Source of the DNA: Halolamina sediminis
Lineage (GTDB): Archaea > Halobacteriota > Halobacteria > Halobacteriales > Haloferacaceae
DNA: 64,000 nt
Reading direction: 5' to 3'
NCBI RefSeq assembly: GCF_001282785.1
Contig: NZ_CVUA01000001.1
Span: 1,674,001 to 1,738,000, forward strand
Of this stretch, positions 4,953 to 55,017 are shown one piece after another; position 1 is the stretch's first letter, and every line of letters starts with the position of its first letter. Below the pieces are notes generated by a model. That model saw nothing but the letters and a program-made list of their open reading frames with translations. It was not told the origin of the DNA and searched no databases. The translations under genes and the position numbers were made by a program.

Positions 4953-9664
<4,712 letters not shown>

Positions 9665-17382: not shown

Positions 17383-17484
17383 GTGACTGAAACAGTATCT
17401 CTTCAGTAAGGGTGCTGTGACGGCAACAGCATCTCTTCACTGGGTCTACTGCGACGGCGACAGCAGCTCGATCGTTGGCACCTT
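17383..17484 (+). repeat. Three tandem degenerate 34-bp units at the edge of repeat element copy 1
   Basis: Units at 17383-17416, 17417-17450 and 17451-17484 share a GTGACNGNAACAG(C/T)ATCTC-like core with exactly 34-base spacing. The third merges into the left arm of the structured element. Single copies of the same 34-bp unit form arms of copies 2 and 3. Units 1 and 2 are most alike (CATCTCTTCA against TATCTCTTCA). They are contiguous without spacers, so this is not a CRISPR array. Confidence 0.75.
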
Positions 17485-17782
17485 GCGACCGCACCGCCCC
17501 GCACAGCCCTCACGCCTTCCCAGCCGACTCGTTCGGGCTCGTTCGCCCACGGAGGCGTCGTGCGGGCGACCCACGCGTCGCCCGCACTGCCAGCGAGACC
17601 GCCGGTCTCGCCCTGCTCACGTCGCGCGCCACCGCCGGCTGCAGTGCGGTCGCGGTGGACGCCTCGCGAGCGCCACGTTGGCGCTCGCGGGGGGAGGGGT
17701 GGGGATTCCGTGCTGCGCCGGACCCCGTGTCCGGCACACTGCGGTCACAAGTGGCCATGCTCACTCCGCGGTCCTGTTCGCG
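17451..17782 (+). repeat. Structured intergenic repeat element, copy 1
   Basis: About 332 bases between hisC and the next gene, homologous to elements at 40664-41019 and 54616-54975. Ends are imperfect inverted repeats: the left arm runs into TTGCGACCGCACCG, and the right arm read backwards gives ACTTGTGACCGCAGTG. Shared blocks are CGCCCCGCACAGCCC, CCCAGCCGACTCG, CGGTGGACGCC and GGGGAGGGGTGGGGATTC. Hairpins occur at 17665-17689 (11-bp stem, CGT loop) and 17717-17735 (7-bp stem, CCCGT loop). No protein is credible across it. It could be a MITE-like element or a structured RNA. Confidence 0.85.
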
Positions 17783-17864
17783 ATCGAAGAACGAACGGAT
17801 CACCTCACGACGCCACGACTGACGGCGCTCTCCCCGGAACTGAAAAAGCGAGCCGTTACCGCTG

Positions 17865-28860: not shown

Positions 28861-29550
28861 ATGGAACTCCCACACAGTGAACTCGAACCGGAGGAGATCA
28901 AACCGGGAGCCGACCTGAACGAGGCCGGCCTTCGGGAGGCGAATCTCACGGACGCCGATCTACAAGGTGCCGACCTCAGTGAGGGTGACCTTCGGGGAGC
29001 AACCCTTGTGGACGCCGACCTCCGAAACGCCGACCTCAGTGAAGCTGAACTCGGTGATGCTGATTTCACCGGCGCTGACCTGTCCGGAGCGGATCTTAGC
29101 GATGCCCAGCGTGAATCGATCTATCGCGACGACGGTGATTCGATCGACCCCGGTGGCCCGACCTTCAGCGGTGCGAAGCTCCAGAATGCAGACCTGTCGG
29201 GCGGTGCGTTCATCGATGGCGACTTCAGTACCGCAGACCTCGGCGACGCCGACCTCACTGATGCCAGGCTATCGGACGCAACGTTCACGGATGCAAGCCT
29301 CGACGCTGCCGAGATGACTGGTGCTGATCTGGGCAGCGGCAGCTTGGACGGAGCAACTCTCGTCGACGCGACACTCACGGATGCGACACTGATCGGCTGC
29401 AACATGCGGGACGCAGAGTTCACGGACGCCGATCTGTCGAACGCGAATCTGGGCGGTGGCAAAATCGAGGGCGCGACGTTCACCGGAGCGATGGTACCGG
29501 ACGCGATCCACGATCAGTTAGTCGAACACGGGCTCATTGACGAGGAGTAA
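28861..29550 (+). CDS. Pentapeptide repeat protein
   Basis: 229 residues. Two blocks of A(D/N)LXX pentapeptides (ADLNEAGLREANLTDADLQG onward, and a second block after residue 100) predict a right-handed beta helix, interrupted by a loop at about 80-100 (QRESIYRDDGDSIDPGGPTF). Some relatives mimic DNA and protect gyrase from inhibitors. Nothing here proves that role, and the gene is about 20 kb from gyrBA. Helical caps flank the repeats. Its codons are slightly less GC-rich than its neighbours. Confidence 0.85.
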   Translation: MELPHSELEPEEIKPGADLNEAGLREANLTDADLQGADLSEGDLRGATLVDADLRNADLSEAELGDADFTGADLSGADLSDAQRESIYRDDGDSIDPGGPTFSGAKLQNADLSGGAFIDGDFSTADLGDADLTDARLSDATFTDASLDAAEMTGADLGSGSLDGATLVDATLTDATLIGCNMRDAEFTDADLSNANLGGGKIEGATFTGAMVPDAIHDQLVEHGLIDEE

Positions 29551-40663: not shown

Positions 40664-41019
40664 CGCGAACACGACCGCGGAGCGAGCATGGCCTCTTGTG
40701 ACCGCACCGCCCCGCACAACCCACGAACCTCCCCAGCCGACTCGTTCGGCCTCCGGCCTCACTCGTCCCTCGCGCTGACATGCGCCACGAGGGCGCATGC
40801 GCTTCGCGCCGACAGCCACAACGTGCGGTGGCGGTGGACGCCGCAGGCCGGCACTTGTCGCCGTCATCAGAAATCGGAAATTTCTGATTGGCAGACGAGA
40901 ATCTCCGATTCTCGTCGACGGCCCGCGGGGGAGGAGTGGGGACTCGGAACTGTGCCGGGCCTCGTGCCCGGCACCCTGCGGTCGCAAGTGGTCAAGCATC
41001 GAGATGCTGTTGCGGTTGC
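40664..41019 (+). repeat. Structured intergenic repeat element, copy 2
   Basis: About 356 bases in the spacer between the 41-residue gene and ndh. It keeps the shared blocks of copies 1 and 3: GACCGCACCGCCCCGCACA, CCCCAGCCGACTCGTTCGG, GGCGGTGGACGCCG and GGGGGAGGAGTGGGGACTCGG. The left arm is type B and the right arm type A. Hairpins: 40866-40888 (9-bp A/T-rich stem), 40894-40916 (10-bp stem, TCC loop) and 40952-40974 (9-bp stem, CTCGT loop). The stems differ in sequence from copies 1 and 3. No gene is supported. Confidence 0.85.
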
Positions 41020-54542: not shown

Positions 54543-54615
54543 TTCGTGGCAGTGGTGCGGTGCTTTTCGGTCGGTGGATTCTGAGAGAACGGCGGTCGCT
54601 CTGTCAAGGTCTACT

Positions 54616-54975
54616 TCGACAGCAACAGCGTCTCGACGCGAGACCACTTGCGACTGCACCGCCCCGCACAGCCCACAGATCTCCCCAGCCGACCCGCTCG
54701 CATGCGCTCGCTCGTCCCTCGCGCTCGGCTCGCGCACGGAGGCGTCGTGCGGGCGAGCCACGCGTCGCCCGCACGGCCAGCGGGACCGCCGGTCCCGCCC
54801 TGCTCGCGCTTCGCCCCCACAGCGACCGTGGTGCGGTAGCGGGGCGGTGGTCGCCGCGGGCCGGCGCCGGTCGCCGGCCCGCGGGGGAAGGGTGGGGATT
54901 CGGTACTGCGCCGAACCTCGTGTTCGGCGCACTGCGGTCACAAGTGGTCTACGAACGAGTTGCTGTTGCCGTCGT
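54616..54975 (+). repeat. Structured intergenic repeat element, copy 3
   Basis: About 360 bases between the MATE gene and a small regulator gene. Both 34-base arms are type A: left 54616-54649 into GCGACTGCACC, right 54942-54975 read backwards into GTGACCGCAGTGCG. Hairpins occur at 54854-54884 (12-bp stem, GCCGGTC loop) and 54907-54931 (10-bp stem, CTCGT loop). A further stem pair around GTGCGGGCGA and TCGCCCGCAC is shared with copy 1, as is CGGAGGCGTCGTGCGGGCGA. No gene is supported. Confidence 0.87.
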
Positions 54976-55017
54976 TGTCACTGAACAGCAGTCAGTTGAA
55001 CGAAGAAGTAGACGCTA

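Follow-up and report, generated by a model that had tools for sequence, protein, structure and literature searches.

A palindromic intergenic repeat with eight predicted helices

The window, by which we mean the whole 64,000-nucleotide stretch of Halolamina sediminis DNA that was analysed, contains three copies of a modular palindromic intergenic repeat of roughly 235-520 bp that carries many hairpins. The neighbouring genes are ordinary and encode an aminotransferase, SurE, a pyridine-nucleotide oxidoreductase and a MatE transporter. The window also holds DNA gyrase subunit A on the minus strand (4953-7430) and, at 28906-29439, a series of in-frame repeats (GCCGACCTG..., family D5) that resemble a pentapeptide-repeat protein gene. 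On the plus strand, the element cores between the terminal inverted repeats span 17479-17753 in copy 1, 40692-40991 in copy 2 and 54643-54947 in copy 3. The terminal inverted repeats are ~15 nt long and in copy 3 lie at 54641-54656 (left, the 5' side of helix P1) and 54932-54947 (right, the 3' side of P1), both on the plus strand. They are flanked by conserved outer arms of ~40 nt that are mutually inverted. In copy 3, the right arm runs for ~40 nt past the terminal repeat (54948-54988, plus strand) and the left arm is of the same type in inverted orientation (54600-54642, minus strand), the ends of both being approximate. Copy 1 bears the sole B-type outer arm found on the hairpin side in the analysed genome, G000 (CATGCTCACTCCGCGGTCCTG..., 17754-17785, plus strand).

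A consensus fold built from 46 short elements contains eight predicted helices, with P1 formed by pairing of the terminal repeats, P8 as the rightmost helix and P3-P7 between. In the predicted P2 helix, a C-rich left strip pairs with GGGGGAGGGGTGGGG; the conserved G-rich strip that would provide the P2 partner is located at 17690-17706 in copy 1 (GGGGGAGGGGTGGGGA) and at 54883-54899 in copy 3, both on the plus strand. P1 and P2 are mostly invariant, so that covariation speaks neither for nor against either helix. P7, by contrast, is hypervariable, more extremely so than P8: a stem of 6 pairs or more is retained in 86 of 87 copies, with ~41 different stem sequences among them. It forms a perfect hairpin at 17662-17692 in copy 1 and at 54854-54884 in copy 3 (plus strand). 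The P7 types are genome-specific, with a sharing of 0.115 within genomes versus 0.061 between them (0 of 2000 permutations). These genome-specific types, together with the many perfect stems, indicate that P7 is renewed in blocks.

Optional hairpin cassettes are nested inside the hairpins of the element. Among them is a double-hairpin cassette of 54-56 bp whose insertion point lies in the 5' arm of either P7 or P8, following a CGT-like target; the 56 bp example in the P7 arm of copy 2 occupies 40862-40917 on the minus strand. This cassette recalls small mobile repeats, which insert into palindromes (PMC3119063).

Covariation in P8 and across the element

The hairpin under study is P8 of copy 3 (54907-54931, plus strand, loop CTCGT), the right-hand hairpin of the larger repeat and one of its eight predicted helices. 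The initial annotation, which viewed P8 as a hairpin with compensatory changes, had placed it at 17717-17735, 40952-40974 and 54907-54931, and the hairpins are present exactly there, with the letters as written. As delimited here, P8 of copy 1 spans 17714-17738 (loop CCCGT, with the stem GCCGGAC/GTCCGGC at 17717-17735) and P8 of copy 2 spans 40952-40974 (loop CTCGT), both on the plus strand. Alignment confirmed that the hairpins hold the corresponding position in three alignable elements (repeat families D6/D7). All three copies are real elements, but they are not the only ones: on the G000 chromosome (2.84 Mb), a DNA search returned 74 matches and profile models of both ends identified 58 recognisable sites. 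An exact pattern gave no hit in the GTDB contigs, perhaps because close genomes are absent from them, whereas a gene beside the element pointed to Halolamina (89% to H. rubra, 87% to H. pelagica).

To describe P8 across the genus we used 113 distinct right ends, taken from seven genomes and one remnant. The loop, described in the annotation as a nearly fixed C(C/T)CGT, is less constant than claimed, although CTCGT is dominant (76 of 113); the remainder includes TTCAT (9), CTTGT (7), CCTGT (7) and others. Stems among the 113 right ends include GCCGGGC/GCCCGGC, GCCGGAC/GTCCGGC, GCCGAGC/GCTCGGC and GCCGAAC/GTTCGGC, and further GTCGGGC/GCCCGAC, GCTGGGC/GCCCAGC, GCCGGGG/CCCCGGC and TCCGGGC/GCCCGGA. 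Changes on the two sides of the stem go together: of its ten pairs, nine are at least 96% paired while the sequence varies, and the outermost, at 35% paired, is not real.

In a set of 27 sequences, two-sided changes were found in 27 cells, the P8 covariation score was reached by 0 of 500 shuffles, and sliding the partner by 1-3 columns destroyed the pairing. For the R-scape test that the annotation had proposed, we substituted a tree-aware null of our own, which is modelled on R-scape and combines FastTree, parsimony and the re-dealing of substitutions on the tree. The top seven ranks were all hairpin pairs, of which two P8 pairs had E<0.02 and one more had E = 0.13. These values are to be read with the tree itself, which is approximate for any set of element copies because the copies recombine. 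Across the whole element, nine pairs reached E<0.04 (none was reached in simulations), and all of them fall within the predicted P3, P4, P7 and P8 helices. The independent variation of paired columns with more homologues, which the annotation named as speaking against its reading, did not occur in the 27 sequences, in the 113 right ends or under the tree-aware null.

Two further properties of the stems bear on how this covariation arose. First, P8 intermediates are equally rare in both classes (9 G.T versus 10 A.C); counted by pair position, the figures are 28 G.T and 33 A.C. Cell counts over the whole element lean to G.T (114 versus 78), an excess mostly due to one P2 pair and to the fixed T-G pair by which P7 is closed. 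Second, in two copies, one each in G000 and the related species G055, the 5 nt loop is exactly reverse-complemented within an intact P8 stem. Template switching between the arms of inverted repeats homogenises the arms and inverts the spacers, and the two inverted loops carry this signature (PMC8604942). Template switching can also give rise to hairpins and keep them intact, with compensatory changes that span several bases (PMC8794818). Because covariation coexists here with inverted loops and with no G.U excess, covariation alone is insufficient to establish selection for the fold.

Inherited positions and exchanged contents

The number of right-end copies ranges from 4 to about 70 per genome in the seven genomes. 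In the 170 family genomes searched, only members of the genus have the complete right end, the sole exception being one decayed half copy in another genus. This lone right half (G116, L090, about 1500-1620) is positioned ~230 bp downstream of what appears, by eye, to be a putative tyrosine integrase gene. The left module, consisting of the P2 5' strip and P3, is found in 99 of the 170 genomes and in 15 of 28 genera of the family. It occurs as a shorter form ending ...CGCGCGCCACCGCA, which is also present in G000. A short structured repeat of the form CCTCCCCAGCCGAYTC...CTCRTCCCTCGCGC...hairpin...GCGCCACCGC, often after CCCCTTTCAGTCCCACCC, was observed at L232 and L234-L237 (G000) and at L209-L229 (other genera). 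This widespread short repeat apparently forms the left half of the Halolamina element, and the long element would appear to be the family-wide short repeat joined to a genus-specific right half.

The window and G055 are syntenic, at 79-91% identity, and each of the three window sites is occupied by an element in G055 as well. Both flanks of 41 of the 58 G000 sites mapped to one place in G055, and 39 of these 41 places hold an element; as the comparison covered 1.2 Mb of G055 in pieces picked around known copies, the figure to rely on as a minimum is 39 of 58. At 6 of the 39 shared sites the element has the opposite orientation in G055. One of the six is copy 1, the core of which is inverted relative to the G055 site with the B-type outer arm unmoved. 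The G055 orthologue of copy 2 has the same orientation and different internal modules, and the site of copy 3 harbors a different right-end subtype that lacks P8. We considered whether G055 site 3 represents a decayed hairpin and rejected this, as it is a distinct right-end subtype. This second right-end subtype, GGGGAAGACYATCGCGGTGCTG..ACAAGTGGTCATGC, was noted at L203 and on G055:C1 at 623668, 956041, 1636996, 1909968, 2015941 and 2329735. At six G055 sites it takes the place of the P8, or of the P8-type right end, seen in G000.

Elements at 31 orthologous sites resemble each other no more (0.848) than non-orthologous elements do (0.844), and their ranks run from one end of the range to the other, although identity at four-fold sites between G000 and G055 is 73%. 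The spacer DNA beside the elements is hardly alignable between the two. Simple homogenisation within each genome does not suffice as an explanation, as similarity within and between genomes is almost equal. What is inherited is the position of the element; exchange or renewal of its content outpaces change at neutral sites. Elements also coincide with synteny breakpoints between G000 and G055 (sites 69530, 2825733, 684657, 705203 and 2002977). Several flanks map apart, each adjoining a G055 element (for example the pairs 69530/2825733 and 684657/705203), which is what rearrangement between element copies would produce. The elements of five other species examined are mostly at sites that are occupied in G000 or G055, and several sites are cleanly empty in G050 and G052, where the spacers are element-free.

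The 55 classifiable sites in G000 comprise 23 convergent, 27 tandem and 5 divergent gene pairs, and the element-free spacers 84, 403 and 227, respectively. Convergent pairs therefore account for 23 of 55 sites versus 12% of element-free spacers (odds ratio 5.4, p about 1e-7; genes were called by a simple codon model, and single site assignments may err). At the tandem-gene sites, the orientation of the element is indifferent to the flanking genes (14 versus 13).

Origin of the matched arms and relation to known repeats

We favour, with a probability of about 0.6, a transposase-free modular mobile repeat of the MITE, small-mobile-repeat or BOX-like kind, the arms of which are matched at the DNA level. 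Such a repeat would have spread mainly before the G000-G055 split and would now persist in gene-end spacers, with convergent genes strongly preferred. DNA-level copying of one arm from the other, either by template switching or by cruciform repair, would keep its stems matched, and the movement of whole hairpins between copies would contribute. Some selection for the fold may add to this DNA-level matching. Template switching is supported by the two inverted P8 loops and by the rarity of intermediates, the latter of which selection could give too. Mobility is suggested by the copy number and the empty sites; no transposase partner or target-site duplication was found. At G000 sites with both ends the cores are too short for any transposase gene, and target-site duplications are not readable, as the outer arms end raggedly and the empty spacers align too poorly. 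Against a mobile repeat stands the retention of the element at 39 of 41 mapped G055 sites, which is unusual for a selfish repeat and is possibly a sign of host function.

Such a function is central to a second account, which we regard as possible but doubtful, whereby the host maintains hairpins or cruciforms between convergent genes as a DNA structure bound by protein, in the manner of a BIME-like site that gyrase, SMC or a nucleoid protein would recognise, and the fold is selected at many fixed sites. What the annotation offered as its second option, a protein-recognised DNA hairpin, is of this kind and likewise possible. It would account for sites that are common to two species though the adjacent spacer can hardly be aligned, for the marked excess of sites between convergent genes and their shortage between divergent ones, for the indifference of orientation to genes and for the covariation of four separate helices beyond the tree-aware null. 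However, no binding protein was identified, the scarcity of divergent sites may merely reflect promoter avoidance, and the sites that are empty in G050 and G052 show that the full set is not needed throughout the genus. It is also conceivable, though we think it unlikely, that Halolamina has ~60 fixed chromosomal sockets whose hairpin cassettes an active recombination or repair process keeps exchanging, inverting on the spot and matching anew, with the position passed on and the content not.

That the element acts as a functional RNA, with one strand transcribed alone or within 3' UTRs and its fold under selection, we consider improbable. The predicted eight-helix fold closed by the terminal repeats and the base pairs that covary beyond phylogeny are in keeping with an RNA, and copy 3 folds better than shuffled sequences. 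The latter is true of both strands, however, and the opposite strand folds at least as well (z -3.8 versus -2.2). Were one RNA strand selected, G.U should outnumber A.C intermediates, and the P8 counts given above show no such strand preference. Moreover, elements lie in either orientation at tandem-gene sites, which also disfavours a strand-specific UTR element, and orthologous elements differ in orientation. No Rfam 15 family matches the window at its curated gathering score, and no AT-rich promoter-like stretch was seen by eye in the conserved core. Thus, the annotation's conclusion of selection for folding, and of a functional RNA, was borne out as regards covariation with many homologues but goes too far in view of the missing G.U excess, the inverted loops, the block-renewed P7, the lack of an Rfam match and the indifference to orientation. 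Finally, it is hardly credible that the covariation is a historical artefact in which a few ancestral hairpin variants were shuffled as blocks with no force matching the arms, for although P7 types are exchanged between sites, block exchange is unable to give rise to new matched stems, changes on both sides are seen in most P8 pairs, and ~41 P7 stems pair perfectly.

As a rule, compensatory changes count as proof that an RNA is functional. The Halolamina family combines strong covariation, inverted loops, no G.U excess and wholesale stem renewal, in tens of copies per genome and in several species, and can gauge how much covariation DNA-level arm copying alone makes. It is, in addition, a repeat with an inherited site and non-inherited content that marks rearrangement breakpoints between species.

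We found no description of this repeat in the open-licence literature. REP and BIME sequences are extragenic palindromes near gene 3' ends, as is the Halolamina element. An IS200/605 (Y1, RAYT) transposase is not supported as the mobiliser, as Y1 does not track the element: G000, with its 58 sites, has only broken pieces of Y1 transposases, and G050 and G052 have none. Like MITEs, the element is short and non-coding, has terminal inverted repeats and is present in many intergenic copies; unlike MITEs, its sites are largely common to two species, and no parent transposon was found in a search for Y1 transposases. PATEs are without terminal inverted repeats (PMC3119063), unlike the Halolamina element, in which these repeats are paired as P1.

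The small mobile repeats (SMRs) of Haloquadratum walsbyi are 80-110 bp long and commonly >95% identical within a type, and its SwitchRepeats are cases in which two strains have, at an identical position, a different repeat or the same repeat reversed (PMC3119063). Like these, the Halolamina element is haloarchaeal and transposase-free, has inverted ends and occurs in tens of copies; it likewise has a repeat inserted into the palindromes of another, and a shared position with different or reversed content. It differs from SMRs in its length of 235-520 bp, in the similarity of its copies (about 85%) and in having both a modular fold of eight helices and perfect stems that are hypervariable; the SMR comparison was between strains, ours between species. 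Pneumococcal BOX elements (67-637 bp) are modular, with fixed ends, variable middle modules and predicted stem-loops (PMC3049150). The Halolamina element shares the conserved ends and variable internal modules that fold on their own, but its modules are a variety of hairpin cassettes where BOX has tandem boxB copies, it is archaeal and very G+C-rich, and no target-site duplication was found for it. The closest published phenomena are the Haloquadratum SMRs and SwitchRepeats (PMC3119063) together with the BOX elements (PMC3049150).
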